DNA from: Hexactinellida sp. DTS-2022
Lineage: Eukaryota; Porifera; Hexactinellida
DNA: 64,000 nucleotides
Assembly (NCBI GenBank): GCA_028753945.1
Contig: JAPNXP010000005.1
Coordinates: 2,356,001 to 2,420,000 of the forward strand
Direction of reading: 5' to 3'
Shown here: one piece after another, positions 1,173 to 51,259 of the stretch
Numbering within the stretch: position 1 is the first letter of the stretch
Layout: every line of letters starts with the position of its first letter
The notes under the pieces: model-generated
Told to the model about the DNA's origin: nothing
The model's input: the letters and a program-made list of their open reading frames with translations, nothing else
Database searches by the model: none
Program-made: the position numbers and the translations under genes

Positions 1173-3466
1173 TAGATTGATATAAAAAAGTTCCAAAGAT
1201 CTAAGTAAGTGTTTTTAATGTGTTTTATGGTTATTATCCAGCAAAAGTGTATTTATTAGGAAAAATGAGCTATAGGACGCGCTTCTGTTCTGCCTAGGCA
1301 AAACCCTAGATCTTGGGACAATCTTTAGATCTTGGGACAAAAATCTTGCATTTGGGACAGTTTTAATATGTATATACAGCCTTGTGTTTTATTAGTATAG
1401 ATCATCAAATCAAATAATATTTTCACAGATTGTACTTTTACCCACCCAGGTTGATAGATTAGCCACTGAATTCTGACGAAAATATTTCGTCTATATTCAA
1501 AGACCTACATGGAACTTCAAATCGAAAAGTTATTCTTTTAAACGACTTTTGTCTTTGAAAAATTCTGCCTGCTGCAAAAAGTTATTTACCGCCGCATGTG
1601 GCCGGCAAATGAGGTGTTGTGGAACACTGCCTTAGAGCATCAGTTTGGTCTCTATCGTATGATGGCTTGTGCCCATTATCATTTAACTTATTGCCAGCTT
1701 CTCGAAACAGAGCATCGATTGAAACTAGCAAGTATTTTGAAGTTATTTACAAATACACCAGATGCTGGTAAAACTTCATTGAAAGTTTTCTGATATCATT
1801 TTCTTCTTCTGTCGAAGAGCATTCAGAGGCCAGCTTTGATCTAACTGATTCATCTATATAATTTATCGAACATTCACCTTGATGTTGCTACTTTGGAAAG
1901 TTTATCTTTTTTGCCGCCTACTCAGTCTATTCTTATTTGCTAAGTGTGAATTATGTCTTATAATATTATCTGAAGCTAAAACCTAAGAGGATGTAAACAG
2001 TATGTGCACTTTAATATCATTGCTTTACCGAGGCTCTCTTATGTGACACTATGATCGCGTCATCGAGTTTACTATCTTCTCTGGAAAATTCTTATTGTAA
2101 TTGAACAACAACTCTACTCAATGGGAAAATTGATATCTGGACCTTCTCGTAAGTGCTCGTTCAACTAGCTCTATAGTTGTTCGACGAAAAATGAAAGTGA
2201 GGCATGCAGAAATATATCTAGAATGTGATCTACAATGGCTGGGAAGTGTCGCGAAAGTGGCTACTTCCATCACTAATTGCTTATTATCTAACAAAGTCAG
2301 AAACTTGAACGCTTTAATTTGATCTAATTGAGAAGAAAGCCAAAATTTAATGAAATTTATGATAGATTATTAGTTATTTACTGTGCATAAATGTACAATA
2401 CATTGCTGTACAGCATACACATGGCGTTCACATAGTTTTGTACTACCTCAAATAATAACTGTTCTCTTTAGTAAATTGATTAGTTTTATAACTCTGAGTG
2501 ATTTTAATGACATATCATTGCTAAGTAATCAATAGATATTGTTGGAATAATAAATTCATACTGCCCTTTTGATGCACCCATAGACAATATTTTCATTATT
2601 GTACCCAGGCCTTATATAACTAGGTCACGATAATATGTTACTTGTACTACGTCATCGTGTCAGTGTTACATGCCATGTATGTTTAAGTTATTATTCTGAA
2701 CTAAGACAATAATTTAAAATTGATTAGTTATTGGCTACGCCAGTTTTTTTTAACTTCCAAAACTTTGAGCCTATGCCATCTGAAAAGGGTTTGGTCCACC
2801 ACACTTTGCGTGGATCACATACACTTGCTAGAAGAGTGTTGGAGCTGTCTTAAATATTCCACTGATAACCAATGTTGTGAATTTATTAGCATATGAACAT
2901 TTTGATGTGTCCCATAAATTACAATCCTTCTGTATTGGGACCAGATTCGTAAAGGAGAAATATTTCCTTTTGCTGGCTTCTGGATTCCATTGGAATTTCG
3001 AGTTCAAGCGGGTTGAGAGGTTTTCGGAGCTGCAAGATCTCGTCGACGCTTTAGTTGAATAGTGCGTTTAAAGCTGTAAAGTTTGGGTAATTTACAGTTA
3101 TGCGCCTCGGAAACCGTCAATAGACTTTTTCCTAACGATGTTGATTATATATGCGATGAAATCCACCTTATATTTGATCCTACCTTAAACCAATTTTTCT
3201 CGTGCTGAGAAACATACCCAAGTTTCAACACACCTTCTAAGGCACAACAAATTTATATCTATAATCCTTTAGTTTATTACACCTAACTCCATTAATTATG
3301 GGACAACCCTTCTATCTATTATCGATTTATTGAATTATCGAAATTCCAAGTCTATGTATTTTTATTTTATTCAGTTACTTTTCATGCAATTTTGTTCGAT
3401 AAGTTGATCATTATTTCTGCGATTTTAAACTTAGATACTTGTCCGGATTAACTTTCTTTAATTTAG
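1173..3466. other. No recognised gene between the Helitron and the ABHD17 exon
   Basis: AT-rich DNA with a few short open frames (for example 1596-1793 and 2877-3062 on +) that match nothing I recognise. A short direct repeat of AGATCTTGGGACA occurs near 1308-1340. I looked for upstream ABHD17 coding sequence (the FSHGNA and DYSGYG segments expected before the 3467 exon) and did not find it, so this stretch is probably intronic. Confidence 0.5.
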
Positions 3467-4779: not shown

Positions 4780-5662
4780 CTTATTAGCTTTGCTTATATA
4801 GCATTGTAGAATTTATTTTCCCCCTAAAGTAGTATTTAATTAACTTAAACATGAGGACGGCTAATTGAAATATAAGATTTACTTTCAGCATTCATTTGTC
4901 TAAACCAGGCTTTCATCCAGGAAATTTACCGCGCTCCTAGATTTAGTTTGAGCTCGTTCAGTTTTCATTTTGTACGCCTAGGTTAGTCATTTTGTATTAA
5001 GTCTATGGGAGTATCTCTCGAAATTGTAGTCCTAGACTCGATTTTTGTACGCCTAGATTAAAATCCTGCCAAATTACGATCCTTTAGGCGCGCCCAACAC
5101 CCTGGATAACACCCTGGTCTAAACACAGTTACAATTCCTATTTATCAGGGATACTAAAAATAGATATTTTCTTATTCAAATGAAAATCAAATAAATTGAT
5201 TTATTGTTAATTTTATTGCTTATTTGAAAATGGCGAAACATATTAAATTATACTTATTTCGTAATATTACATTCTAGACTAAACTTCAATGTTTTTAACA
5301 ACAATAATTTGTGTTCATATATTCAAGCTTCTAGCTCGATGATAACTATTGTAGATCCTTCAACATGGATGTTTACATAGGTATAACGATAATATAACTA
5401 TAACAAATGTTTTTGATTTACATTTATTAGGTAATTCAATGTCGATTTTCTGATCATTATGAGGAAATTAGAATATACAAATTCTGACTGCTTATTAGAA
5501 TTTCACATGACCAAATTATTCTAGGCGATTAGATTGTAATCATTGTGATTGTTCTCTACTGTAATACAGCCATAATTACATTTCTGAAACTAGTGCCATG
5601 GGACAGGGTCACTTATGTCACAACTGCAGGTAGGTATTCTTCTCGAATCGATGCTTTAAAAA
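4780..5662. other. Intronic spacer without recognised features
   Basis: AT-rich sequence. I see no open reading frame of note, no terminal repeats and no recognisable element. A short palindrome-like GGCGCGCC occurs near 5088. Confidence 0.4.
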
Positions 5663-5689
5663 GGGAGCGCTGCTTTAGCTCGAATTGTT

Positions 5690-5965
5690 ATGTTGTCGAT
5701 TGCTAGAATTTAGCATGTTGTCGATAGCTCAACTCAGTTTTTGAGTCTGTTGTCGATAGCTCGACTCACTTTTGACTATGTTGTCGATTGCTCGACTCAG
5801 TTTTACATAAGTTGTCGATAGCTCGACTCAGTTTTACATATGTTGTCGATAGCTCAACTCAGTTTTTAACTCTGTTATCGATAGATCGACTCCCCTTTTG
5901 AGTCTTGATTATGTTGTCGATAGCTCGACTCAGTTTTACATGTGTTGTCAATAGCTCGACTCATT
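5690..5965. repeat. Tandem array in the left end of MULE-RING copy C
   Basis: About eight units of roughly 30-40 bp share the core GTTGTCGATAGCTCGACTCA, separated by short T-rich spacers. It occupies the same place relative to the transposase as the different arrays in copies A, B and D, so it is a terminal-repeat array. There are no unique spacers of constant length, so it is not a CRISPR. Confidence 0.8.
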
Positions 5966-7384
5966 CATTTGTATGGCTGTTGTCAATGGGAATAATTGCT
6001 GAATATGTTTGTTTTGAAAAATCACATTTTATGTGAATTCCAAACAACTTGCTTCACTGGTATGAATGGCTTTTTGGCCCCTTGATATTATTGTATTATT
6101 TACATCTTCAACAATGGAATACATATCAGACAGGTTTAGGCGTAGTAATGGAAAAATTCTTACAACAACCGATGGGTTTAACTATTCTAAATATCGAATA
6201 AATAAAAATACAACATACCTCAGATGTGTTTTATGTAAATGGGCAGCTAAATTAAAGTTAGAAACTAATTTGATATATCACAATTCAATTCATAACCATG
6301 GCATTGGTGAGTACAGATCAGGAGTATATGAATTGAAGACAGAATGCAAGCAAATGGCTCAAACTACTCAAGATAATTTAGGAAGATTTTCGATGACGAA
6401 CCAAGAACTAGTCTGTTTGTAACTGAAATTTATTTCAAAGAGTGTGAGTGTTCTATGTACCGTTCTAGGAGAAGATTGCAACCTAAGATGTTACCCGAAT
6501 CTACTTTTGCGACTCACCACAAATTTACTGTAACGATTAATAACCATACTGCTGTTGTTTTTTATTCTCAACACATGAAAATACTTTTCAGAAATTTCAA
6601 AATTCAGTCTGATGGGACAAATTTATCCTAGCCAACCAAATTCTCCAAATTATGGACAGTATACGTGCTAATTGATCTACATGCACTCCCAGGCATTACA
6701 TTGTTTAATGACCTCTACAGATCAAGAATTCTATACTGCAATAATAACTAAGATCCATTCTCTCATTCCACATTTCATACCGAAAATCTCAATTTCTGAC
6801 TGGGAACAAGCACCGCAAAATTATATGGAATAAATTTATCCCCCCATTAAAGATCAGGGATGTTGGTTCCACTTTATCCACGTATCTGGGCCAAAACTCA
6901 GAAGCTCGGACTTGTTCAGAATTTTCATGGTAATCCTGAAACTGCCAAGTTCATAAAAGATCTCCTGGCAATACCATTTCTCCCACAAGTTTAATTTGTC
7001 CAACCTATGCATTCCTCCAAGTACCGGTTCTTACAAATCTTGAATCGGGCAAATTGGATCAACTTCGTAATACTTCAAGACTAGGTGGATTACTCAAATA
7101 GATCCAGAGGAACTTTCTATCTATGAAACAGAAATTACTACCAATAATGCTGTGGGAAGCTATCACGAAAAGGTCAAATCCATCATTAAAACTCCTCATC
7201 CAAGAGTATGGAATTTTCTAACAACTCTAAACAATATCATAAATGACATAGATAATGATTTAGGGAGATTGAGACTAGGTCATAGCATTTCTAGGCCGAG
7301 AAAATCAAAGCATGTTCTAAAGGATCAACAACGCGAGGTTATTAATGAAAAGTTCAGATCTGGCGTGTTCACTCCTTGCATTCC

Positions 7385-7715
7385 TGCAACCTATTTAAGT
7401 AATATCCCTGTACAGGGCTCCAATTTTCCCCTGTACATTGGCCAAAATACCTGTACACCTCCCAAAGATTTTTATCGCTCGCTGCGCTCGCTCGTCCAGA
7501 GAATTACTATACACTCACATAGTAAAATTATCGCTATTTAAAGGAAGAAAACATTAACTTATATACTGAACAGGGAATTCCTTTACGCTTTAATGAATAT
7601 ATAAACCTGTTAGCACTGTAGACATTTTAGGATTATTTGACCCTAATTATTGAATTAAAATCCCTGTACTCCTGTACAGAACTGCCAAAATTGTTAAAAT
7701 CCCTTTACGGTTGGC
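7385..7715. other. Unidentified insertion inside MULE-RING copy C
   Basis: Relative to copies A and B, the coding sequence breaks near 7380 (after RSGVFTPC) and resumes at about 7716 (VCPWQYLNAM). The inserted DNA carries CCCTGTACAGGG near its left end, several TCCTGTACA/CCTGTACA motifs at both ends, and a GC-rich stretch CGCTCGCTGCGCTCGCTCG. No coding capacity. The ends are not resolved. Confidence 0.4.
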
Positions 7716-7734
7716 AGGTGTGTCCTTGGCAGTA

Positions 7735-8231
7735 CAGTGCAACCTCTATAAGTGGGGGAGCTTGGGACGGGAAAAATGTGAATTTCCCCCCATTCCCCAG
7801 TTATAATTTTAAATGGATAGACACTATATATGGTCATATTATGTAATATATATTATAACACATCCATTAATGTAAGTTCTGGTCAGTATTTGTATATTTT
7901 AACAATTTCGTTAAATTCTGATCCACCGTCTATGATTTATTAAAAAGCATTATAGTAGAGCCATCAAAAATAATTATTCTGTAGAACTTTAGAGTGTATT
8001 TATTAGAAATGCAGCATAATTTATAAGTATTATGCTATAATTTGTCCACTCCCCAATTTATAGAGGTAATTTTGATTTGGGAAACTAATTTCTTTATAAT
8101 TAAGGTCCCCAATTCCCTACTTCCCCGCTTATAGAGGATCATTTGTATGGAAATGAAGGAATATGGACCAAAATTCCCCCGCTTTTAGAGGTTCCCCATT
8201 TATTGAGACCCCACTTATAGAGTTTGCACTG
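7735..8231. mobile_element. TA-flanked pogo-like MITE inserted in copy C
   Basis: The ends read CAGTGCAACCTCTATAAGTG (left) and the inverse ACTTATAGAGTTTGCACTG (right), each bordered by TA. The length is 497 bp with no transposase. Removing it restores the MULE-RING codons WQ-YLNAM across one TA, which supports the boundaries. The right half of a second copy lies at 51260-51646, inside MULE-RING copy D. Confidence 0.88.
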
Positions 8232-8541
8232 TATCTAAATGCAATGAGCACCACTATTGGTGGTACCTTTACTTTAGAAACAGAAATTAAATTATCTGAT
8301 ACTGATGAGTCAGACACTTCAGATAATGAAAGCGATAATCCAGTACATGAGAATATTTGTGTTGTATGTCTGAGACCACGGACAACAACTTGGGTACATA
8401 TTTCTACCTTGTAGGCACGCCAAATGTTGTGCAGCATGCAGCAAGGGAATAGAAGAATTGAATCAGACTTGTCCGGTGTTCCGTGATCCAATTATCAGTC
8501 GATTCCAAATTTTTAATTAGCAGTCATGCACTTATATTTAT

Positions 8542-8820
8542 GGGGGCGCTTCATTTGTTATAATTTTGGAGCTTTCACTTGTTAGAATTTTCTGAGCTTT
8601 CACTTGTTAGAATAATTTTCGATACCATCTTCACTTGTTAGAATAATTTTAGTACTACCTTCACTTGTTTGAATAATTTTAGATACCACCTTCACTTGTT
8701 AGAATACTTTTAGATACCACCTTCACTTGTTAGAATAATTTTAGATACTACCTTCACTTGTTAGAATAATTTTAGATAATACCTTGAAGTTACCTTCACT
8801 TGTTAGAATGGTTTTTGTTT
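8542..8820. repeat. Left tandem-repeat terminal inverted repeat of copy A
   Basis: About eight units of roughly 31 bp with core CACTTGTTAGAATAATTTTA. The outermost two units are shorter variants (CATTTGTTATAATTTTGG and TTGTTAGAATTTTCTGAG). The same variants, in the same order from the tip, occur inverted at 12640-12718, so the arrays are homologous ends. Confidence 0.85.
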
Positions 8821-8879
8821 ACTGCCTTCACTTCTTAGAATCCATAATTTCAACTTGCATTTCAAGACGGATGTTTGGT

Positions 8880-10240
8880 TATTATTGTTTTTCAAAAGTA
8901 GTTGTCTACTATTTACTAAGTTCAGGCTTCATCAATTACTCAGTTATTTTGATTTTCATCTACATTTTCTTTTTTGAATGGTGTCTACAAACAATGCTAT
9001 TTATGGCGTTTCTTATTGTGGTTTTACAAATGACGAGCGCTTCGCGACGGATCACTCTCTCACAAAAGTCGCTTCGCGACTTTTGTTCGTTCGTGTTAGG
9101 CACTACGCAATACAATTAACGGCCTTTCCCTCCCCAAAAGCAATAATATTAATAATGAGTTCACCTGTGGCCGTGCCTAAAATTCATTTTTGGTTTTGAT
9201 TAGTTACTGTAATTTGTTTTGGGAAATTATGTTTGTAAGTTATTCTCTTTGCTCATTAGATAATAATTATTAGTTAATTAATAGCTCAATAATTATTAAG
9301 GGTAGCTCGTTCAGCTATATTAAAACGTTAGCTTGTTAGCTCAAGTAAATTGAGACCTGTGTTGGTGAATTATTCGCAATTAATTAATTTCAGTAAATTG
9401 CAAAGTAATTTACCAACTCTGGATTTAATCTCTCCATAATAATGGTTTAAAGATGTTAATAAGACCGCTTCGCGGTCTTATTCTCACCATTAAACCATTA
9501 TTATGCAGAGGTACATTCAGGGTTGCAAAATATTTGATTTAATAGTAATAAACATTTATACATCCCTCCATAAACTATTTATTTTGCAGGAGCTGGGTTA
9601 GTGAATTGTTTAATTTAATTGATAGGAATAATTAACATAATAAATCTCATCGTTAAGCAGAACCAAAATCTTAGATTACTTAAGTTAATTCATTTCTAGT
9701 AGAAATCCTAGGTTCTATTGATAGTCTTATTATAGAAGCCAATATAGGTGTAATAAATAAACAATGCATTAGAGACTCTAAGCGCGCATTCTCGTTGACC
9801 AAACAAATCAGATTGATAGAAATATACTGACGTAAGCTAAATACATCACGAATAGAATAAACTGATGGAAGCCAAACTGGATTAATCAAGTATGCAATTT
9901 CGGAAATATTGTAGGTGAAGATTAAATCATCAAACCTCAATATGTGCAATGATGCAGCAATTGGAGGTTACATTTTTGTTATTGCCTGGCTCAGATTAAA
10001 TGCGAAAATTATAAAAATTTCTAGGGACATGCAATACATTCAGTTTTATAATGTGACAAAATTATTTGTCGATTGAACCAAAAGTGTAAGAGCTGAATCC
10101 AAATTAGTTCCTGTGTGACGTCACATTCCCATAAATTGGTATACGTGTGTCTCATTGTATGTTGTGTTATCATCTAAAATTGTGGGCGAATCGAATAAAA
10201 ACTGAATGAGTTATCCCCAAATATGTGCGTTTATGACGTC
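8880..10240. other. Non-coding interior of copy A with GC-rich hairpins
   Basis: No gene seen. It holds two striking hairpins in AT-rich DNA: AAAAGTCGC-TTCG-type at about 9064-9084, and a larger nested one at about 9436-9505 (ATAATAATGGTTTAA pairing with its inverse around a GACCGCTTCGCGGTC core). Short frames at 8784-9199 are not convincing genes. Confidence 0.45.
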
Positions 10241-10244
10241 ATAA

Positions 10245-10406
10245 TCCCGTTATTTCGCTTAGGAAACCAATAGATCGTTGTCAGCGTGTAAAATTACCCA
10301 TGCATGCCAATTTTGAGCTTTCTAGGACTCGTAGTCTTTCCTATTAATTCTGGACAAACACACACACAAACACACACTTGCACTTTGCTATACCTGTGTT
10401 GGTAGG
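10245..10406 (-). mobile_element. Helitron-like 5' end fragment (first of two)
   Basis: It shares the block AACCAATAGATCGTTGTC, AGCTTTCTAGGACTCGTAGT and AATTAATTCTGGACAAACAC with the 5' ends of the Helitrons at 1-1172 and 18969-24640, but has a different outer tip (TCCTACC on the minus strand). It is probably the 5' end of a non-autonomous relative. The matching 3' end was not found. Confidence 0.55.
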
Positions 10407-10564
10407 ATACACTATTTTTGGTTGATTAATGCAGGGACTAATTAATTAACTGTGTCACAATCTGAAGTAAATTGGAATTCGTGAACTGCTATCAGGTGTA
10501 GAAATTTAGTGTACGTCTAATGCTTTGAATTTTCTACAGATCGGAGCAAAATTGGGAGGCTAGT

Positions 10565-10764
10565 ACAAAATATCTGTTTTTCGAAACTGTGACGTCATAA
10601 TCCCGTTATTTTGTTTCAAAAACCAATAGATCGTTGTCGCAGTACAAAATTACTCTAGGATATAAATTTTCAGCTTTCTGGGACTCGTAGTCTTTCCAAT
10701 TAATTCTGGACAAACACACACACACACAAACAAACACACAACAATTGCGCTTTTAATATAGAGA
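10565..10764 (-). mobile_element. Helitron 5' end (second of two), likely non-autonomous copy
   Basis: The minus-strand tip TCTCTATATTAAAAGCGC is followed by the GT-rich stretch and the same conserved blocks as the complete Helitron. The outside neighbour is T on + (A on the Helitron strand), as expected for insertion between A and T. No RepHel coding follows, so this is a non-autonomous or truncated copy lying within MULE-RING copy A. Confidence 0.65.
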
Positions 10765-10832
10765 TTATATTAAACAATGCGTTATATAAATAGTTGTACT
10801 AATGACATAATTTATTACGAATAAGGATAGAA

Positions 10833-12404
10833 ATGGAATTTACAACAGATGAATACAAACACAGTTTCGGAAAAGTTTTACCACCTCTGACGGGAATAAA
10901 TATATTCAATCGAAGCTTAAGGGAAATTATATCTACCTCAAATGCGTGTTATTTAGGAATACTTGTAAAGGAACGCGCAAATTAAATCGCGATACAAATT
11001 TGATAATACCTCTGAAGGGACACAATCATGATGTCAATGAATACAAGGGAGAAGTATATAGTCTTAAGACAAAGTGTAAAACGCTTGCTAAAAATTTACA
11101 AACCACTCTCAGAAAAGTATTCGATGATGCTACAAGAGACAGCCCATTCGCATGTGAAATATCGTTTCCTCAATGTGAATTAACAATGTACCGTGCAAGA
11201 AAGACGGTGGAACCCAAAATACCATTGAACGCATCTGAGTTTGTTGATATGATACATACCACCATTTTTGGTAAATATTTAAAATTTAGTGTAACGAGTG
11301 GCGATCAAACTGGCGTTGTATTCTTTTCAGAACAAATGGCTGGATTTCTCTCAGAGATCACAAATATACAATTTGACGGTACATTTTACTGTACCCATAC
11401 AGTTTGCTCAATTATGGACCGTATTTGTATCGGTTGGAAGGCATAGTCTGCCAGCTATACATTGTTTAATGACCGGTAAAAGTCAAGATTTGTATCAAGC
11501 TGTGATAGACAAGATCTTTATTCCCCTCTTTCGACCATTGGCATCAATGTCAGATTGGGAGCCAGCAGCCCGGAATGCAATGAAAAAGCACTTCCTCAGT
11601 TGGAAATTTATGGGTGTTGGTTCCATTTCACACAAAGAATTTGGGCCAAAACACAAGAGGTCGGACTCGCTCAAGCTTTCAGAAATAGTCACGAAATCGA
11701 AAGTTACATAAAATAACTGATGGCTATTCCGTTTTACCCGCATCTCTGATAAATCCCACTTATGCTTATCTTCAGATACCAAGTTTGGGTAATTTTGATA
11801 TGATTAGACTACAAAAACTTAATAAATATTTCAAAAAAAGATGGAACCTGGGGAACTCTCAGTCTACAACCTCATTATTTCAACCAATAACGCAGCTGAG
11901 AGTTATCACTCTAAACTAAAGTCACTAATTCGTACCTGTCACCCTCGGATATGGACGTTTATGGCTACACTCAATCAAGTTATACAAGACACGGACAACG
12001 ACATTGGTCGGTTACAACTAGGCTTGGAGATTAGAAGACCAAGAAAAAAGAAAAATGTCCAGAATTTTGAACGTCGAAGGATAATAAGACAAAAAGTAAG
12101 CGACGGAGAATTTAATCCTTGGGAGTATCTTAAAGCCATCAGCCATACAATTGGCAGGATAAACACGAATGCCAATGTTCTCTCAAACGATTCGGAAGAT
12201 TCTGACGACGAGGATACTAACAGACCTGGAGAAGAAAATAAGTGTGTTGTATGCCTTGAATCCCGTAATGCTACCTGGATCTTTTTGCCCTGCAGGCATG
12301 CTAATTATTGTCCAGGATGCAGTCAAAGAATTCAGGATCTAGGACAATCATGCCCTACATGTCGATCAGAAATTCAGGACATGTTTCAAATATTTACCAA
12401 TTAA
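10833..12404 (+). pseudogene. MULE transposase with C-terminal RING finger, copy A
   Basis: It starts MEFTTDEYKH, shifts frame near 10880, then reads IYLKCVLFRNTCKG and GHNHDVNEY (FLYWCH-like zinc segment), MYRARKTVEPKIPL, and the catalytic parts: first Asp in IQFDGTF, second in SMSDWEPAARNA, third-site Glu in TNNAAESYHSK. The last 187 codons (11841-12404) are intact and end in a complete C3HC4 RING, spaced C-x2-C-x12-C-x-H-x3-C-x2-C-x10-C-x2-C (CVVC, CRHANYCPGC, CPTC), followed by FQIFTN. Frameshifts near 11390 and 11610 and stops near 11710-11840 disable the DDE domain. The RING is linked by an acidic Ser/Asp/Glu stretch. Confidence 0.85.
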
Positions 12405-12507
12405 CTTACTTACATTCTTCATTTCTATACTCTTTCCATTACATTAGCAATAAATATGCAAACGTACCTATATTTCTATTCAAATAGAGTAATCAATTCA
12501 GTGTATT

Positions 12508-12718
12508 ATAGTAGTATCCAAAATTATTCTAACAAGTGAAGGTGGTATCTAAAATTATTCTAACAAGTGAAGGTAGTATCTAAAATTATTCTAACAAGTG
12601 AAGATGGTATCTGAAATTATTCTAACAAGTGAAGGTGGTATCTAAAATTATTCTAACAAGTGAAAGCTCAGAAAATTCTAACAAATGAAAGCTCCAAAAT
12701 TCTAACAAATGAAGCGCC
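12508..12718. repeat. Right tandem-repeat terminal inverted repeat of copy A
   Basis: Inverse of the array at 8542-8820: units of about 31 bp with core TTCTAACAAGTGAAGGTGG, ending in the tip variants and GAAGCGCC. Only 8 bp separate it from the left tip of copy B. Confidence 0.85.
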
Positions 12719-12726
12719 AAGATTAT

Positions 12727-13035
12727 GGGGGAGTTGCATTTGTTAGAATTTTGAAGTTGTCATTTGTTAGAATTTACTTAACTGTCACTTGTTAGAATCG
12801 GTTTTTCAGTTTACTGTCACTTGTTAGAATGGTTTTTCAGTTTACTGTCACTTGTTAGAATGGTTTTTAGGTTACTGTCATTTGTTAGAATGTTTTTCAG
12901 TTTACTGTCACTTGTTAGAATGGTTTTTCAGGTTACTGTCACTTGTTAGAATGTTTTTTCAGTTTACTGTCACTTGTTAGAATGTTTTTTCAGTTTACTG
13001 TCACTTGTTAGAATGGTTTTTCAGGTTACTGTCTC
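12727..13035. repeat. Left tandem-repeat TIR of copy B
   Basis: About nine units of roughly 33 bp with core TGTCACTTGTTAGAATGGTT and a CAGTTTAC spacer. The outermost units are short variants with TGCATTTGTTAGAATTTTG. The ACTTGTTAGAAT core is shared with copy A, while the spacers differ. Confidence 0.9.
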
Positions 13036-13273
13036 AAGTTAAAAATTTAGAATACATGTAATTTCAATTTTCAACAGTTATTTCTTGATACTAATCACAC
13101 ATAATATTTTTATGATTAAAAATTCGGGATATTATATTTCATTAAATATTTAACTATTAGATTAGTAAAGATAAACGATAGCTTTAATGATATATCTGGA
13201 AGAACGTAATGCATGGATAAATGAAGATGTAATAAATATAAATCTCGAAACATCATAACATATTTAAATGTTG

Positions 13274-14868
13274 TCAACTAGTAAATATTTGAAAGCGCCT
13301 TTCGATTATAGAACGGCACACAGGACAAGGGTGTCCTAGCTCCTCAATTGTGTGGCTACATTCTGTACAGCAATTGGCATGTCTACAGGGCATGAAGATC
13401 CATGTTTCTGTACGAGGCGCAAGACAAATAATACATTTATTATTTTCTCCAGTTGGCTCAACATTTTCTTCGTCGGAATATTCTGATTCACTTGAAGAAA
13501 TAAATTCTTGCGATTTAATGTTGCCAATTGTATAGCTAATCGCTTTCAAGAATTCCATTGGGTTGTAATCTCCACAAGACAACTTCTGTTTGCAAGTATT
13601 CCTACGTTGCTCATTATTATTATCCTGTTTTTATCGTGGTCTACTGATTTCTCTGCCTATGCGTAAACGTCCTATATCATTGTCTGTATCCTGTATTATT
13701 TCATTCAGAGTTTCCATAAACGTCCATATCCTTGGATGGTTAGTTCTTACTATTGATTTAAGTTTAGAATGATAGCTTTCTGCTCCATTATTTGTAGCGA
13801 TGCTGATTTAATAAATAGAAAGTTCTTCAGGAGTTATTTGATTTATCCAACGTTTTTTGAAATAATTTTTTAGTTTTTCGAGATTTAATTTTTCAGTATT
13901 TTGTATAACTGGCATTAGAAGGAAATTGAAAGTGGGAATAATTAGGGGAGCTGGCAAAAACGGGATTGCCATTAGTTGTTTTATGTAAGCTTTTACTTCT
14001 GGATTATCTCCAAAACTTTGTATAAGTCCAAATTGTTGTCATTTAGCCCAAATTCTCTGGGTGTAGTGAAACCAGCATCCGTAAATTCTCGCTTGAGGGA
14101 ACACCAACTTAAAAGCATTTCTTGCTGCTGGTTCCCAATCTGACATACTCGCTAATGGCCGGAATTGAGGAATATTAGTACAAATACTCTCCAATACTGC
14201 TTGATATAGTTCCTGGCTCTTTGATGTCATTAAACAATGAACAGCTGGCATAGTATTTCTTCCCACAGATACAAATATGGTCCAGAGCTGAGAGAATTGA
14301 GTTGGAACGGTAAAGAATGTACCATCAAATTGAATATTGGTCACTTCATCCAAAAATGTCTGCATCTGCTCTGAATAAAAGATTACACCTGTTTGCTCAC
14401 TTCTCGTCACGCTATACTTGTAGTATTTCCCCAATGTTGTTGTTGGCAGCATAGCAACAATCTCGGGAGCAGAAAGCGGAATTTTCGGTTGTAACTTTCG
14501 TCTCGCTCGATAGAGGGATGACTCGCATTCTCTGAAGGAGATATCACATGCACAAAGATCATTTCTTGTAACATTATCAAAAACTCTTCTAAGGCTTGTT
14601 TGGGAATTCCTGGCCATAGTTTTGCATTTTGTTTTTAATAGATAAACTTCTGTTTGATACTTTTCGACATTATGATTATGCGAATTCAAAGGTATGATTA
14701 AATTGGTTTCATGATTAAGTTTACTTGAACCCTTACACCCACCCCTAAATAACACACATCGAAGGTACATAAAATTCCCCTTAATTTTGGATTTGATATA
14801 TTTATTACCATCTTGAGTTGTAAAAACTCTTCGAACGCCCGCTTGTATTCATTTGATGTGTACTCCAT
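13274..14868 (-). pseudogene. MULE transposase with C-terminal RING finger, copy B
   Basis: It starts MEYTSNEYKRAFEEF at 14868 and shifts frame near 14810. A 243-codon open stretch (14770-14039) then reads YLRCVLFRGGCKG, NSHNHNVEKY, LYRARRKLQPKIPL, the first Asp in IQFDGTFF, AVHCLMTSKSQELYQ, the second Asp in SMSDWEPAARNAF, and the MULE C-x2-H in YGCWFHYTQRIW. Stops interrupt at about 14039, 13812 and 13635; between them are NNGAESYHSKLKS (third-site Glu) and HPRIWTFMETL. The final 102 codons (13582-13274) hold an intact RING with the same spacing as copy A (CIIC, CRHANCCTEC, CPVC). The lesions differ from copy A, so the RING was part of the family before these copies decayed. Confidence 0.88.
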
Positions 14869-15081
14869 GATAATAATATTTGTAACAGGTAAAGTTAGTG
14901 AATATATACTACTATTTGGTAGTTCGTGTATACATTTCATACGTGAAGTGGCAGTCATGAACAGTATTCGTTATTAATAAAGAATCAGATTTCAGAAATG
15001 GGGGTGATTTAAATGGATTCTGACTAAAGAAAAAAATAATTGAGAATCCTTAAATATTTACCAATCTTAAAATGAAAAACT

Positions 15082-15405
15082 AATTATTCTAACAAGTGAC
15101 CGTAAACTGAAAAACCATTCTAACAAGTAACAGTGACCTGAAAAACCATTCTAACAAGTGACAGTAAACTGAAAAACCATTCTAACAAGTGACAGTAAAC
15201 TGAAAAAACATTCTAACAAGTGACAGTAAACTGAAAAAACATTCTAACAATTGACAGTAACCTGAAAAACCATTCTAACAAGTGACAGTAAACTGAAAAA
15301 CATTCTAACAAGTGACAGTAAACTGAAAAACCGATTCTAACAAGTGACAGTTAAGTAAATTCTAACAAATGACAACTTCAAAATTCTAACAAATGCAACT
15401 CCCCC
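15082..15405. repeat. Right tandem-repeat TIR of copy B
   Basis: Inverse of 12727-13035: about nine units with core ATTCTAACAAGTGACAGTAA and CTGAAAAACC spacers, ending in TGCAACTCCCCC. Confidence 0.9.
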
Positions 15406-16870
15406 TGCAACAGCTCTACTAATTCTGGCCAAGTCAATCATGGTGGCCGACACTTTTGAATCTGTTACTAGCTCACCTTTTACTTCTGCCTCAGTTCCAA
15501 GGGATACTAAAAATACCCAAGGCGAGCTTCACCCACAAACAATTAAGAACAGTACAAACTTCTGCTGTACTAATAATCAATGGCCTTCAAGTAATCCATG
15601 GTCCAGCAAAAATTTACTCAGTATAAGGCCTTATATAACGAAGTTCACGCCAGGCTTATTATTTGAATAAGGGATTCCATAAAACTTAGCCCCCTTGAGT
15701 GTTATGTGAGCCACATGGTGCCGAATCACTGTTAACTCTCGATAATATCAAAAAGCATGCTATAATATACAGTATGTATTACTGTAGACCATCCAATAAA
15801 GGTTCCTGATTACCCTTGCCACAATCAGGCTACCTATATTGAGAACCATTAAATTAGTAACTGAAGCCTCATTATATTTATCAATGACGGGAGAAGATGC
15901 AAGAAATGGGTTGATACTATCTACGATCACATCCCGAAAAAACATGCCTGTTTTTAATTCAAAACAAGATTAACATTGCAAAATTGAGAATTGTGTTGTA
16001 CGTAGATCAGTTTGATAAAAACACATGATTAATCAATATTATTGGAAAGTGGCAGAAAATGTTGGGGAGGTGACAGGTGCGATTTCAAGGTTCGTACAGA
16101 AAGGTACAAAAAATTCGGCTAATTTCAAACTATTATAGATAGAGTTTAACTTTAATTGGCACCGATAGCTAATAATGGACTTTCTATTCATAATAAATAC
16201 AACGACTCTACACATAGAAGCAAAGCTTCGTTTGGGTGGCATTTTGTAAAAGTAGGTTCTGTGACAAACGTCTTTCCAAATTTATCATATTCACATATGT
16301 ATCAGGATTACGTTTAGGGATGGAAGGATAAAAGGGCGCATATCTTCGATATCGTGAGCGTCAGTATTGATACATAGTTGCAAAATTGTCGAAACCGCCT
16401 TTTGCCTTAATAATAAATCGTTATCAGAAAGCCTAGATGATAGCATATTTTCTGCATGACAAAAATACTATGCATTCCTCTGGATAACTGGCCAGATAAC
16501 TTCCTCATTATTCAAGGGTATCTGTCTTGTGAGGATAAAGATAAGAAAAGGTTTTTAGGGTCACTTGTGCATAACGGATTATACTTTATTCTAAACCAGC
16601 CAGGTGCTTAGAAATTTAATATGAAATTACTATACCTGTTTGTCCGATGGTCGATTCACTTGTAGATATGGAGTATCGAAGTATTCTGTTCGCCAAAGTT
16701 AACCATCTTAAATAGTGAATGACACTTTCAAGTTTTGGATAAAATACCTGACTGGAATACTCGACGCACGGATCTGAGGGTGGCCCGGCCAAAATATGGA
16801 AGTGATCCGGCCAAAACTGAACCTTCTTTAATAATATTGTCACAGTAGATGAAATGGCCAACATGGCCGG
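15406..16870. other. Spacer with one dispersed inverted repeat
   Basis: No gene recognised; open frames are short and unlike known families. The stretch at about 15560-15650 (AATCAATGGCC, AAGTAATCCATGGT, AAGGCCTTATATAACGAAG) recurs inverted at about 53625-53695 and is probably an uncharacterised dispersed repeat. Confidence 0.4.
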
Positions 16871-16889
16871 ACCGCGTGCCATAGGCGTC

Positions 16890-16966
16890 GACCATTCCGG
16901 GGCGGGCGGGGCATGCCCCGGCATGAAAGAAGAATGCCGGGGCGGCTACTGTTCCGCCCCGGCATA
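16890..16966. repeat. GC-rich hairpin with GCCCCGGCAT arms
   Basis: In AT-rich surroundings, GCCCCGGCAT and ATGCCGGGGC face each other across a 9-base loop, and a further CCGCCCCGGCAT lies just downstream. A single related CGCCCCGGCATG is present at about 36757. No function recognised. Confidence 0.6.
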
Positions 16967-16984
16967 AATCTACCAAAATTCGGT

Positions 16985-17190
16985 GATTATTTGGTGGTGT
17001 TTCGTGACGAGTGTGAAGTTAGCAGCGAGAAATTGAGCACACTATAAGACACTATAAGTAATGAACCAACGGGTCAATCTAGATGCCATTTGGAATATAG
17101 CAATGCTAGCCTAGGTACTTTCAAAAAGAAAATCTGATCTGACACCTGGGAGGCATACAGTGACTTTGCAAAAAATGTATAATTTACCAA
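16985..17190. repeat. Dispersed repeat, inverted relative to 35985-36190
   Basis: About 200 bp with high similarity to the inverse of 35985-36190, including GAGTGTGAAGTTAGCAGCGAG, AAGTAATGAACCAACGGG and TCTGACACCTGGGAGGCATA. No coding. Family unknown. Confidence 0.75.
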
Positions 17191-17591
17191 AAAATGTATA
17201 ATTTAATTCTAAGAGTCTAAGATTATATATTCCATAACAACGACAGACTATGTGGGTATATTTCGTTCTGCAAGAATATTCTTGCATTATTAATATACTG
17301 ATGTATTTAATTCTAACGAGGCCTTCGGTCTCGGTCGCTTTGCGACGGTTCGGCGCTTCACACCTCAATTGACGACCGCTGCGCGGCCTGACTAAGCCTT
17401 GAAATTAATCGATTAGAATTATACATCTCTGTAGTGTATTAAATCATAAAGTCCCCATAATTAATAAGAAGGATTTAGCTTTGTATAACAAATGATATTT
17501 CGATGATATAATAAATAAATAAACAAACATACAATAATTGATTTAAGTGATTAAATTAAGATAATTAAGTTGATTAAATTTGATTAAATAA
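17191..17591. other. Non-coding stretch with GC-rich Cys/Gly-free hairpin region
   Basis: At 17310-17395 there is a GC-rich patch (GGCCTTCGGTCTCGGTCGC, TTTGCGACGG, GACCGCTGCGCGGCC) with hairpin potential. Its first part recurs, inverted, at about 38815-38855. The remainder is AT-rich with no feature. Confidence 0.4.
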
Positions 17592-17957
17592 TTATAATTT
17601 AAGAATTAATTCGAATTGCCAAAAGGCTCGGGCCTGGAGGTCCCGAGGCTTAGGGCGCCTTTCCTCCCTCCACCTCCTCCTGCGCCCTCCACCTCTGCCA
17701 CCTCCTCTGCCACCTCTGCCACCTCTGCCACCTCTGCCACCTCTGCCTCCTCTGCCACCCTGCGGGTCCTCCGGGTCCTGCGGGTTTTGCGGGTCTTGCG
17801 GGGGGTCCTCCGGGTTCTGCGGGGGGACCTCCGAGTGCTGCGGGTCTTGCGGATGTTGCGGGGGGTCCTCCGGATTCTGCGGGAGGTCCTCCGGGTCCTG
17901 CGGGTCTTGCGGGTCTTGCGGGGGGTCCTCCTCCCAGGTGAGATCTAAGTCATCCAT
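17592..17957 (-). CDS. Low-complexity ORF: Pro/Gln/Asp repeats then RGG tract, behind a Helitron-type promoter
   Basis: 121 codons: [11 protein letters not shown], then about 60 residues of degenerate [15 protein letters not shown] repeats, an acidic-to-basic switch, a (GGR)n tract of about 25 residues, RRRRW, and a short tail. RGG tracts often bind RNA or phase-separate, but this one is encoded by a short GC-rich minisatellite and could be a by-product. Its ATG is where the Helitron RepHel ATG would be: the upstream 170 bp match the Helitron promoter including the TATA box. I do not recognise a family. Alternatives are the N-terminus of a divergent Helitron-derived gene or a chance frame. 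Expression evidence is needed. Confidence 0.4.
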
Positions 17958-18126
17958 CTAATTCAAAATTAGTAAAAGAAATAAGTCAATGTAAAGAAAA
18001 ATTTTTTGGTTCCGATAAAAAAGTAAGTATTTATAGTCAGGCATACTAAAAGAAAAACATACAATGTAAAACATGCACAAATGATTGGTTTGATGAAATT
18101 ATTTCAATCAATCAGATTGCAGCCTC
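17958..18126 (-). promoter_or_regulatory. Helitron-type promoter upstream of the RGG ORF
   Basis: The TATAAATA box (18028-18035), AACCAATCATTTGTGC and the TGATTGATTG block are closely similar to the regions upstream of the two RepHel genes. Similarity stops abruptly at about 18126, so the Helitron 5' tip is absent. Confidence 0.65.
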
Positions 18127-18639
18127 AGGAAGACTGTATATTATGTATTCAAATAATTATAGGTTCGTTCCCTCAGGGCTATTCTATAATAGAACGGACA
18201 CACTTGGGACATGTCCTGTACCTTTCCCCGAGCCTACGCCTGAGCGCTAATTTGATCCGTCGTCTCGGGGGGCAGAAAACAATAAATATTGATATTGCTT
18301 TCTGCACTTCTTAGTAGCTCAATTAATGAAGTAACACTGGGATGAGTGGATCCTCTCACAATATACCTGTATACATATACTGTAATCATCACTATGCTGG
18401 GATAGCTTACATTGAAGGAAGCAAAGCTTCTAGCTGTCAATAAATACATATTGGACAGCTGCTCACCAATTGAGAATCACTCTTGGCATGATATGGGTAT
18501 CATTTGCCAAAAGTGCTCCATCCCTCAGCGGAATCACGCTTCATTCAGTAAGCAGTAAACTGCAACTGTTGACTAAGGTTATGTTGAATACAGTTAGTCA
18601 TGCCACGCCATTTTGAACAGCAGGGGGGATTTCGACGCT
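18127..18639. other. Spacer between the RGG promoter and the OTU fragment
   Basis: No convincing gene. On the minus strand a short frame (18449-18234) contains HPSVTSLIELLRSAESNIN, which could be a transposase C-terminal remnant; I cannot assign it. Confidence 0.3.
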
Positions 18640-18966
18640 GTTATTACTTCATTGTGATACTAAGTAAAACGGATCAAAGTGTTCAGCACCTACATGGTGG
18701 TCTATGCAATGATACACTATCCCCAATTTTTACCATTGTAGATTGGATCACATATCATTGGACTTGTTAGTAGACCATGGATATACACATGGTCTAGTCT
18801 CCACTTATTGCAATCACTATGGGTTGCAATAATGGAGACGACGTCTATGCCAGCTAAAGCTCCTAGCAGTCTTAATTCTACGTCAGTACCCCATGCATGA
18901 GGAGCGGAAATGCGTTGTACGTGCTCATGCAATTCCTCCCCAGAGTACAAACCTGATTTTCCATAA
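18640..18966 (-). pseudogene. OTU cysteine protease fragment (C-terminal half)
   Basis: It reads GLYSGEELHEHVQRI, then WGTDVELRLLGALAGIDVVSI, the hallmark middle of OTU deubiquitinase domains (W-G-x-E/D-x-E-L). After a frame change near 18720 the catalytic-His segment VGAEHFDP follows at about 18674-18688. The N-terminal half with the catalytic Cys (DGNC) is missing. Its coding begins within a few bases of the Helitron 3' end at 18969, and I could not find the missing half on the far side of the Helitron. Confidence 0.65.
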
Positions 18967-18968
18967 CA

Positions 18969-19000
18969 TTAGGAAAGTGTTGTGGACTCAACATGAATCT
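18969..19000 (-). terminator. Helitron 3' end: hairpin plus CTAA
   Basis: On the minus strand TGTTG-AGTCCA-CAACA, then CTTTC, then CTAA at the element edge, with host T following. In rolling-circle transposons this hairpin marks the end of transposition; it is not a transcription terminator call. Confidence 0.85.
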
Positions 19001-19017
19001 ACCAATCAGATTCTGCT

Positions 19018-22000
19018 TTAGCATTTCAAATTTCGATTGAGCTCAGAATCACCTGGTACAGATACCCTTTTCGCAGGACTAAAGACCGGGTCTTCGGAAT
19101 CAGACTGCGAAAGGGGAGAGGATGGAAGAGACACATCCATGGTACATGTATCCTGAGTGGAGTGCACTACATTACCCAAATGATTCTGGAATACCTCACG
19201 ATATACTACATTCTTAACCAAGGCTCCGCCGGATGAGGAGGGGGTACCGCCACAAACCATAAGTTTTAAGCCGGCAGGGTTTTGAACTCGGCTCAATGCA
19301 ACATATAGTTGGCCATGGCTAAAAATAGCATTCGGAGATGGTAGGAATATGCCCACATTTTCTAAACTCTGTCCTTGCCCTTTGTTAATGGTAATACAAA
19401 AGGCAGTACGAATAGGGAACTGCCTCCTTCTGAGCACAAACGGAAAGTCTGAGTCAGATGGAGTCATGGGAATGCGGGGAATAAAAACCCGTTTACCCTT
19501 ATGAACACCTGTAGCAATTTCAACGTCAATCATGTGATTCAGAAATGCTTTTACAGTTAACCGAGTGCCGTTACACATTCCTTGAGTCGGGTCAAGACTA
19601 CGCAATAAAATTATAGAAGCGTGAACCTTAAGGTACAGTCGGTGAGGAGGCAAACCATTTGGTGTAATAGAATTAGGAACTCAGTGGGGTGCATACCTGC
19701 CTGCTCCCCACCTACCGAGTCTGCGCTTAATAACGTGCTCGCTTCCCCAGGTATCAGGTCCATAACGTATTGATTTATAAACTCAGTGGTATCATTCTTA
19801 GGACACATCAAACTACGGCGAGAAATATAATCTGGATTATTATAGTTAACTTTAATATCGCCGTAAGTAGCAGCAACCAAATCAGAAACTGACTCGCCTG
19901 CTACTACGAATTTGTGGTCTACGTGAATAATATGATTCTCATCCTCGGGCTCAGTGACTTCTCCAACTCTCAAAAGGAATTCGGAGAAGTCACTAACTTG
20001 GGATGCGTCACCAGAAGAGAAATTACGGAGTCGCATGTTTATAGAGAGTTTAAGAACCTTAACATGACTCCAGAGAGGCGATCTGTTCAGACAGGCTGAC
20101 ACAACATCAGCTTCGGTCCCATGTCTGATTACAGGCAGTATTTGACGGAAATCACCTCCAAACACAATAACTTTGCCACCGAATGGGATATCGCATGAAC
20201 AGAGATCTCTCAATGTACGGTCGATACACTCTGCAGCATGTCTATGTGTCATAGGAGCCTCGTCCCAAACAAACAGTTTCGTGCGCTGAATTAACCTAGC
20301 TAAGGCGCTCTGTTTGGAAATACTGCAGACAGAGATTTCATTCAAATGGATAGGGACCTTCATCCTAGAGTGAACAGACCTACCACCCTGTAGGAGCAGA
20401 GCTGCTATACCGGATGAAGCCATTGCTAATGCTATATGACCCTGTGAACGGACCGTGGATAACAGCGTGTTATAAAGGAACGTTTTTCCGGTCCCTCCAG
20501 GTCCATCGATAAAGAATGCATTAGAGCACGAATTAGTATCGTTAACAGCTGCAATTATAATGTTATAAATACTCAACTGGTCAGCATTAAGTAGAGGCAA
20601 GTTTTCACTCACAATATCATTCTGTTCACTAACATTATAATCAAGCTCATCCCTAATGATACGCGATTCCTCATACGGATTACTCACATTAATAGGGATC
20701 GGCATACCTGGCTAGTCAGCTAAGGACTTTCCATGTTTCTGCAGTCGGTACTCAAGATCAAGCAATACACTATTTAAGATATGCTCGTCGAGTTCCACAT
20801 TAGGAAATACAGTTCTGGCACTACACAGGAAGTCCTCAGCGAAAGAGGGTTTGTACTTATCCCAGAGATCGAGCGGAAAAGATGTCTCAACAAACAGCAG
20901 AATAGTCACGAATAGCTGACGCAACTGTGCTGGCATAGAACAGGTAGCTTCCTCAGCCAAACACTGATCAACTTCCTGATCATCCTCCAGCAGACCTCGT
21001 CTCAGACATGCCTCCTTATAGGTGTCACAGACGGTGCCATCAGGGAGAGTACGGACGTCCTGAAAGCTCGTGCAACCTATGACATGGTTCAGCAGTATCC
21101 TTAGGTAGAAACGTGGTCCCTCCCCTGGATGAGCTGAGTACATACGGGCTATCACTTTACCATGTCCCTTAACTCTAAGTTTCCATTCACGCTTAGTTTT
21201 GTCCCACACAAACATGTCAGCGAAATTCGTGTAAGTGAGTTCTAGCCCTGCAGGGAATTTCTTATTACCTTCGAACCAAGCAGTTAGTGTGGTATGCTTC
21301 TGTCTGCTCAGAACATCTCCAATGTCCGCGTCCGCAGAGAAGACCACAGACTTCTCATTCTCAAGATGGAGAGCTAGCCTGACCACTTTGGGGAATTTAC
21401 CGTGAAGTTCAAAGGCGAATATACGGTAGCAAGCTTTCCGTGGCAGAGACGTATCGACCTTCTACGTAATTAGCGACCTCGTCCTAACGCTTAGGTAAGC
21501 TAGTATTCGCAGTTTCGCCTGAACTGAACTCTACAATGGCTCTATCGTGACCCTTGTACACATATTTGAAGAGATACTTAACAGCAGTAACTGTGGTACA
21601 AAGCTCTAAATTAATGTGCGCATTGTACTTCAACAGCAAATAGGGATTGTGTGCGACTACCCACCGATTGTCAAGAAGTGCTTTCCTTACTCGCACGCTA
21701 CGGCCATCATCCCTGCGGCGGTAATTAGGTTACCCATTATTAGCAGTGCTGGTCACGGAAGAAAATTCTTTCGGGAATCTCTTAGAGCATTTACCATCAC
21801 GCATGCAAGCGGCGCTTTTGTTAGACAAACCACATGGACCATGCATCATACAGTGCTTCACAATGTTATATAGCCTCGGTTTAAGAACTGGGTCCGGGAT
21901 CTCAGCACACACTATCTTATCATACGCAGAAGGGTCTCGCGGCTTATCCTCATCAGTAAGTATAATTATAATATGAGCATGGGGTAGGCCCCGCTTTTGG

Positions 22001-24233: not shown

Positions 24234-24400
24234 AATAATTTAATCTAATTCGTCAATGTAAAGAAAAAAAATGTATGTTCTGAAAAAAGAAGTATTTATA
24301 GTCAGGCATACTAAAAGAAAAACATGCAATGTAATACAGGCACAAATGATTGGTTAGCTGAATTTATTTTCAATCAATCAGATTGCAGCCTCATAAAATC
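24234..24400 (-). promoter_or_regulatory. Helitron promoter, complete copy
   Basis: TATAAATA (24293-24300 inverted) lies about 60 bp upstream of the RepHel ATG at 24233. CCAAT-type AACCAATCA and the TGATTGATTG block are farther out. Shared with 780-960 and 17958-18126. Confidence 0.65.
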
Positions 24401-49940: not shown

Positions 49941-50209
49941 GGGCGCTGCAATTGATCGAATTTGTCATCAAATAAATATGCAACTGATCGAATGTGATTG
50001 TTTACAATTGATCATTACTAAAGGTCTGCAATTGTCAATTGATCAACTAACGCGTTTCATTAAAATGACAAAAAGGATATTCTTAGTGAAATTATCTATG
50101 TAATCTAAATGAAGTTAAATTAGCAATGGAAAAAGGTAAATTTGCATTAAAAAAAGAACTAGACACTGGTATATAATCAAAGTGAAAATTTGTATGCAGT
50201 CTCCAATAG

Positions 50210-51235
50210 TGCACGACAAATTTGGCATTGATTGCAGGCTTCACGTAGTTTTTGGGTACGTCGTTGACATGTCATTGCGTGTCTGCAGGGATAAAATAAC
50301 ATTGTTGTTTCCTTACTTCCAAACATACACAATACAAGGAACGTTGGTCTAATATAACATCGCTGTTGTCCTCAATACAATATGAGGAGGACATATGGCT
50401 AGTTTGAATTGTTATTGGTTCAATCATATGTGTCAATGCATATAAATATTGCAATGGGGTGAATTCTCCTTCTTTTAGCTTATTTTTACACTCTCTCTCC
50501 TCTGCATATCGTTGTCTCTATTTATTTTCCCCCGCGGATGTGTATTATCGATTCCACTTCTCATCCGTTCTATGTCTAAATCTGTGTCAGAAATGATGTC
50601 GTTCATTGTTTGAGTAAATAACCATGCTATGTGAGGATGGTTAACGACAATTTCAGACTTTCAGGGGTAGATTTCAGCTCCATTGTTTGTGTCTGGATTG
50701 CTTTGTATATTGATAGCTCGTTTGCAGGTGTCCTAATGATCGACTGATTTATTTTGTAGACCTTCAATAACCTGAATATATTAGTGTTATCCTGGTTAAG
50801 AGTCAAATATTGCGATTCATTACTTCGAATGTATCAATAATAGAACTTGCTGGTAGAAATAGTTTAAATTATCATTATTATAATATATCTTCGCAAGTCG
50901 TAGTTTTTGTAGCTTTCGCCATATATTATGTGCAAAATGAAAATGGCAACCATGAAGATTAATTCCTGGGAATACTGTCGTTACTGCAATTCTAGCAGCC
51001 CTTTCCCAATCAGATATTCCGTGAGTGGGTGACAATTGAGGGAAGTATTCGTAAGATTTATACAGTAGTGAGATGTAGAGTGTTTATTTTTGCTGGTTAG
51101 GAGGCAATGGATGCAGGGAATTATATATATCGTCATATTCTAGCAAATATTGTTTATTGAATAGTTACTGTATAAAAGGTTCCATTAAATTTTGATCTCA
51201 TCAATTTTTGTAAGAACTTGAGCAATTTTATCTGA
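50210..51235 (-). pseudogene. MULE transposase with RING finger, copy D
   Basis: Remnants in order: YSDKIAQVLTKIDEIKFNGTFY (first catalytic region, Asp lost), ISDWERAARIAV (second Asp), LHGCHFHFAHNIWRK (C-x2-H), and a decayed RING (CLEVRKQQCYFIP, then CRHAMTC and CNQCQICRALL after a frameshift). Several RING cysteines are gone. The most diverged copy, showing the RING is an old part of the family. Confidence 0.72.
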
Positions 51236-51259
51236 GTAGAAGAATATTCTAAAATATAT

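Follow-up and report, generated by a model that had tools for sequence, protein, structure and literature searches.

Why a transposase would carry a RING finger at its C terminus is the question raised by a 64,000-nucleotide stretch of the genome of Hexactinellida sp. DTS-2022 (contig JAPNXP010000005.1, positions 2,356,001 to 2,420,000), hereafter the window. An earlier reading of this DNA from its letters alone, which we call the sequence-only reading, described four copies (A to D) of a Mutator-like element (MULE) transposase there, each with a C3HC4 RING behind the DDE domain, and proposed that the fusion predates the copies and was retained while they were active. We searched the whole genome for relatives of these copies, estimated selection on the RING separately from the rest of the gene, and compared its residues with those of known ubiquitin ligases. 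The results describe an old, multicopy family in which the RING has been conserved along with the transposase, and in which it most likely serves as a ubiquitin ligase (E3).

A transposase fused to a RING

Judged by its domain matches, the family belongs to the Mutator superfamily and encodes, in a single open reading frame (ORF), a DNA-binding FLYWCH zinc finger, a DDE transposase, an acidic linker, and a C-terminal RING. A Pfam scan of 11 intact ORFs chosen for their RING matched MULE (PF10551) in all 11 (best E = 6.5e-14) and FLYWCH in 6, while the RING match (PF13920, 11 of 11) follows from the choice; save for one weak RNaseH-like match, Pfam found no domain in these 11 proteins besides the FLYWCH, MULE, and RING types. 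The catalytic residues D191 and D253 are present in all 11 and E373 in 10. Full-length identity among the single-ORF fusions falls as low as 36-37%, meaning that families differ at more than 60% of their sequence.

Using the 192 C-terminal residues of copy A as the query, we obtained 1,083 candidates from the 112.4-Mb genome, whose 18 contigs include the window in contig 14; all 150 that were scored and listed matched, giving at least 150 scored relatives of this part of copy A in the host genome. Frames of at least 500 amino acids (aa) accompany 23 of the 150 listed matches, and 20 of these are free of stops inside the match. Of 18 transposase ORFs that we read (520-571 aa), 16 carry the full RING ligand pattern fused in a single frame, a rate that is biased because these ORFs were found through a RING-bearing query; the two others, L045 and L046, have respectively lost the second cysteine and acquired a frameshift inside the RING. 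The full pattern is also present in 24 of the 30 loci L009-L038 and absent from six. A count made from the MULE side, in which PF10551 matches (150 rows) in frames of at least 500 aa were matched by position to the listed RING matches, placed a RING in 14 of 26 long frames (including L046, where it is broken in frame) and none in two (L003 and L004), with the remaining 10 not assignable among the RING matches listed. A fusion confined to the window, which the sequence-only reading had named as grounds for abandoning its proposal, is rejected by these relatives. No relatives were found in two scans of viral contigs or in one scan of bacterial and archaeal genomes, all of them non-eukaryote collections.

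We fitted a codon model to 23 copies, with neutral branch lengths shared, and estimated the ratio of nonsynonymous to synonymous change (dN/dS) at 0.086 (0.078-0.095) for the RING, compared with 0.098 for the DDE domain, 0.106 for FLYWCH, 0.103 for the middle region, and 0.143 for the linker. As absolute values all of these are rough given the saturation of synonymous sites, the median branch carrying 2.7 neutral changes per codon. Fixing the RING at a dN/dS of 1 with its own free rate cost 336 log units. Because the copies had been picked for their RING ligands, we reran the model without the eight ligand codons and obtained 0.103 (0.093-0.114), with neutrality costing 238 log units; for the RING tail by itself (13 codons) the value was 0.092. 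Constraint on the RING is thus close to that on the catalytic domain and does not exceed it.

RING distances among copies track those of the DDE domain (Mantel r = 0.736, n = 17, 0 of 2,000 permutations) and of FLYWCH (r = 0.655, n = 14, 0 of 2,000 permutations), and there is therefore no sign that RINGs have been swapped between families. Together with the identity floor of the fusions and the dN/dS of the RING with and without its ligand codons, this co-divergence bears out the proposal that the fusion predates the copies and was kept during their activity, and the neutral evolution of RING codons before decay that would have spoken against it did not appear in the separate estimate.

To ask what kind of RING this is, we collected 29 distinct RING strings with a pattern that fixes the ligands only, a set that includes groups of close copies. 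All 29 have the linchpin arginine after the last cysteine and a valine or isoleucine at the E2-facing position before C2, and 28 have the proline after C6; a further E2-facing position after this proline is occupied by I, V, or M in 24 and by T in 5. Every protein ends 12-13 residues past the last cysteine with an aromatic F or Y near the end. Positions of this kind are reported to contact the ubiquitin-conjugating enzyme (E2) or its ubiquitin conjugate (E2~Ub), or to serve dimerization (PMC7010608, PMC12326332). The solved structures closest in sequence, MGRN1, cIAP2, CGRRF1, cIAP1, XIAP, BIRC7, and MDM2/MDM4, are all E3 ligases, and the cIAP, XIAP, and BIRC7 chains align up to position 547 of a 548-position profile. 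Like the MULE RINGs, those of cIAP, XIAP, BIRC7, and MDM2 are of C3HC4 type and lie at the extreme C terminus with an aromatic tail, and the accounts consulted give many RINGs of the IAP/MDM2 type a basic residue after the last cysteine (tyrosine in XIAP); they differ in having no transposase attached and, in cIAP2, in a first loop of 11 residues. The tail of the MULE RING thus resembles that of the dimeric IAP/MDM2 ligases, and we predict E3 activity and dimerization.

Copies in the window, terminal arrays, and mobility

In copies A and B the transposase gene is broken but its C-terminal part is open, and the RING follows matches to FLYWCH and MULE, of which some fall under the Pfam cutoff. 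Copy A (10833..12404, + strand) is a FLYWCH-MULE-RING pseudogene with 95.6% DNA identity to the intact locus L039, and its RING and C-terminal tail, ending FQIFTN, occupy 12231..12404 (Pfam RING at 12231-12383, PF13920, E = 7e-14). The copy B pseudogene (13274..14970, - strand) contains two TAA codons within the matched C-terminal part and has 96% aa identity to the intact locus L041 over 13277-14839; its RING and tail lie at 13274..13447 (Pfam RING at 13298-13447, E = 5.5e-11). Both copies retain eight of eight zinc ligands with the spacing C-x2-C-x12-C-x-H-x3-C-x2-C-x10-C-x2-C, as previously described, and the earlier coordinates proved correct to a few bases. The same claim for copies C and D holds only for remnants. 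Copy C comprises a 5' repeat array (5715-5963) and a transposase pseudogene (5663..8514 in all, +) interrupted between ~7442 and ~8232, and its RING remnant (8232..8514, +) has a frameshift at ~8400 and a phenylalanine in place of the last zinc cysteine; copy D (50180..51247, -) is a strongly decayed MULE with a degenerate RING that is spread over frames and has lost its ligands.

Copy A is followed by a 3' inverted-repeat array (12520..12718, +; core ATTCTAACAAGTGAA, end GCGCC, start read by eye) that stops 8 bp short of copy B. An A-type 5' terminal array lies at 8541..8785 (+; first letters, read by eye, GGGGGCGC) and is probably the lost 5' end of copy A, which other DNA would have split by inserting between the two. 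Copy B is present as a whole element (12727..15405, -) with terminal arrays on both sides (12727-13033 and 15086-15405; termini GGGGGAGTTGCATTTG / CAAATGCAACTCCCCC). No target duplication was found for window copies A or B.

Elsewhere in the genome, nine of the 11 loci tested have inverted arrays of 113-633 bp on either side of the ORF; the others are L041, with an 83-bp inverted pair only, and L055, with no inverted array. The latter is a 550-aa MULE-RING ORF for which no terminal inverted repeat (TIR) was found; its last 126 aa occur without change in three copies in the genome. Target duplications of 8-9 bp stand outside G-rich termini in 6 of 15 elements tested: L039 (GTTGTATC), L040 (AATATTTG), L042 (ATAACTAA, third by terminal match in its list and picked because the termini at the edges of the array are G-rich), L048 (GCATTGGTA), L053 (GCGCCATC), and L054 (TCCAAAAC). 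L053 and L054 share 98.5% identity across 2.3 kb yet sit at different sites with different duplications, indicating recent movement. Two further arrangements were observed. At L049, a complete MULE-RING element lies within the transposase gene of a sibling, which reads on in both flanks (3040-3110 and 5330-5400), with an 8-bp duplication (ATACAAGA), all by eye; at L044, two identical 549-aa MULE-RING ORFs stand inverted ~1.7 kb apart and form a large palindrome.

The inverted repeats are built of tandem ~31-bp units (30-32) in 9 of 10 families examined, with 4-28 copies a side: A, B, C/L044, L040, L042 (where they were found on one side only), L047, L048, L049, and L050. In seven of these nine, the tip of the array is marked by a short run with 24-25 bp spacing, and the tenth family, L053/L054, has spacings of 24/29/53 bp. 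The units differ, yet a 15-bp core (~GTCATTTGTYNGAAT) is common to the nine units compared, scoring 17.5 bits versus at most 11.4 in 60 shuffled sets, a comparison in which the search was restarted 25 times for the observed set and 4 times for each shuffled one. Since 31 bp is about three turns of DNA, proteins bound at successive cores would face one side of the helix.

Possible roles of the RING

RAG1, the enzyme that recombines antibody genes, is the best-known pairing of a transposase with a RING. Its RING is reported to autoubiquitinate and to modify histone H3 and KPNA1, and RAG1 RING point mutants are described as able to cleave while joining poorly (PMC3949197). Taken jointly, the features of the MULE RING are best explained, in our moderately confident judgment, by an E3 that acts on the transposase-DNA complex. 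We propose that transposases would bind the 15-bp cores spaced 31 bp apart in the terminal repeats, with FLYWCH as the binder; that their C-terminal RINGs would dimerize through the aromatic tail, as in the IAP/MDM2 ligases; and that the RING dimers would bring in E2~ubiquitin and attach ubiquitin to the bound transposase or to neighboring chromatin. The outcome may be that transposase dosage is limited, that the complex is dismantled after strand transfer so that repair can follow, or both, a model that matches the suggestion made for the RAG1 RING.

Several observations weigh against this assignment or against the necessity of the RING. Besides the bias in the 16-of-18 rate and the saturation of synonymous sites, L045 and L046 indicate that a long frame can persist without an intact RING, at least for a time, and the RING-bearing ORF L055 has lysine in place of the catalytic Glu373. 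In 14 comparisons between close copies, two of which were partial, the gene as a whole has a pN/pS of 0.51, and the RING, with 11 nonsynonymous and 2 synonymous changes, has one of 1.45, leaving no post-insertion constraint visible; this is as expected for decay after insertion and by itself lends no support to constraint. The six best PF10551 matches in the genome (L001-L006) are of a different MULE type, in which the frames that we read contain no RING, and a RING is therefore not required by every MULE here. AlphaFold, run without an alignment on the 192-aa part of copy A, gave no usable fold (predicted local distance difference test score, pLDDT, of 35). The RAG1 RING, moreover, is described as dispensable for V(D)J recombination activity, core RAG1 being more active without it (PMC3949197), and the MULE RING need not be essential either.

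Three other accounts of the RING have to be set beside this one. An E3 could instead be aimed at a host protein of silencing or repair that sits on the element, with the transposon disarming its host. The E3-like and long-kept RING would suit this account equally, as would the activity of the RAG1 RING on histone H3 and KPNA1 (PMC3949197), but apart from the one weak RNaseH-like match the 11 proteins scanned hold no further Pfam domain, and an arms race might raise dN/dS, whereas neither the RING (0.086) nor the linker (0.143) shows an excess of change; we regard this target as unlikely. We also think it unlikely that the RING is a cross-brace finger without ligase activity that serves structure, dimerization, or binding to DNA or histones, in the manner of the piggyBac cysteine-rich domain (CRD). 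That domain is reported to be an essential cross-brace that binds repeats at the transposon ends (PMC8086355), and the element ends here are likewise repeat arrays; the conservation of the residues for ubiquitin transfer (Arg in 29 of 29, V/I in 29, Pro in 28) and the presence of FLYWCH, which already supplies a DNA-binding domain, argue against it. MULEs are reported to pick up host gene fragments (PMC6446971), and 2 of the 18 long ORFs have a broken RING, as might be expected of an accidental read-through or a captured passenger; this is highly improbable for a domain found across families more than 60% different, under selection equal to that on the catalytic domain even when the ligand codons are left out.

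An E3 acting on the transposase-DNA complex thus remains our preferred explanation. An extended form of it, which we put forward tentatively and consider doubtful as a whole, is that a self-ligase transposase evolved independently of RAG1/Chapaev, that the 31-bp phased arrays align FLYWCH-bound transposases, and that the RINGs would come together and become active only once the transposon ends are assembled, marking the complex for removal. If true, this would be a built-in eukaryotic counterpart to the chaperone-driven disassembly of the phage Mu transpososome.

Origin, neighboring elements, and known relatives

The sequence-only reading had allowed that the RING might prove to be a separate host gene. 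Separate RING proteins do exist in this genome (L060-L062), but the first loop of all 29 MULE RINGs has 12 residues, versus 11 in cIAP2, CGRRF1, MGRN1, and these three other RINGs of the genome. A RING tree of 23 MULE copies and six others is poorly resolved and does not recover the MULE RINGs as one clade; only the common 12-residue loop speaks for a single origin. L061 (C11:12231616) belongs with C1:8927210 and C2:2424767 to a second multicopy RING family, with frames of up to 557 aa, that has a weak pre-RING motif in common with the MULE-RINGs (12.2 bits versus at most 9.1 in 5,000 shuffles) and may be a donor, a descendant, or another transposon.

The second MULE type is also represented in the window (25715-28068, +), by a copy that lacks a RING, matches SWIM weakly, and has L004 as a close relative. 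SWIM was considered as the usual tail of such transposases and rejected, with three genome-wide matches at E ≤ 0.001 (42 of 42 candidates scored). A Helitron (18000-24239, -), with Helitron_like_N (PF14214, 21730-22503) and a PIF1 helicase (19018-20711), lies in a G+C-rich stretch (42-50% in 16001-24000), and upstream of it is an extra ORF with STPR-like REYQ repeats. Two ORFs at 56773-57324 (+) and 62905-63426 (-), related by eye and without a Pfam match, probably represent another repeat family. Outside the window, a 507-aa THAP-like transposase ORF (5994-7514 of L046, -) adjoins the MULE-RING copy there, again by eye.

RINGs have been reported in Chapaev transposases and RAG1, and PMC4411706 stated in 2015 that no other known transposable element encodes a RING or Chapa; RING domains are also mentioned in retrotransposons (PMC3630058). 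Like our family, RAG1 and Chapaev join a DDE transposase and a RING in one protein, and E3 activity is reported for the RING of RAG1 (PMC4411706, PMC3949197). As described there, they belong to another superfamily, with the RING N-terminal in RAG1 and behind the Chapa domain in Chapaev, whereas here it is C-terminal, IAP/MDM2-like, and attached to a FLYWCH-MULE core, which places the family outside RAG1/Chapaev. The piggyBac CRD and the PHD finger of Rehavkus are comparable in putting a cross-brace or PHD-type zinc finger on a transposase, Rehavkus also with a minisatellite, but they are PHD-like, and the descriptions at hand name no ubiquitin-ligase features.

The earlier statement that no RING is known in MULEs was too strong, as a RING ORF is on record for the Ghost MULE of the aphid Myzus cerasi and a C3HC4 ring finger for the Phytophthora element 37_Pi (PMC6446971). 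Ghost MULEs occur in aphids, spiders, and cnidarians. In the most complete one described, a truncated transposase ORF and a 420-bp RING ORF lie side by side, an arrangement that could have come from the breakup of the same MULE-RING fusion. By description, Ghost differs in having separate ORFs, no TIR or target site duplication (TSD) found, and SWIM as the tabled domain (PMC6446971), where the present family has one intact ORF with TIRs and TSDs. Phantom MULEs are alike, by description, in the FLYWCH of some members, TSDs of 8-10 bp, TIRs of up to 613 bp, and, in aphids, a minisatellite after the ORF, and unlike in that no RING is listed for them in the same source (PMC6446971). In our searches of open-licence papers we did not come across an intact family that combines FLYWCH, MULE, and RING and has TIRs and TSDs, nor any MULE transposase with a fused RING beyond the Ghost ORF and the 37_Pi entry. 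There is a real chance that the family is the unbroken form of Ghost-like elements.

Among transposase relatives, RAG1 is the well-studied case of a ubiquitin-ligase RING, and the reason for its presence on a recombinase is unsettled. If the pairing arose a second time in another superfamily, where many copies are intact and under selection, this would suggest a direct use of ligase activity in transposition itself, a use that simple excision and integration assays make testable. RING-bearing transposase genes would, in addition, offer raw material for new host genes.

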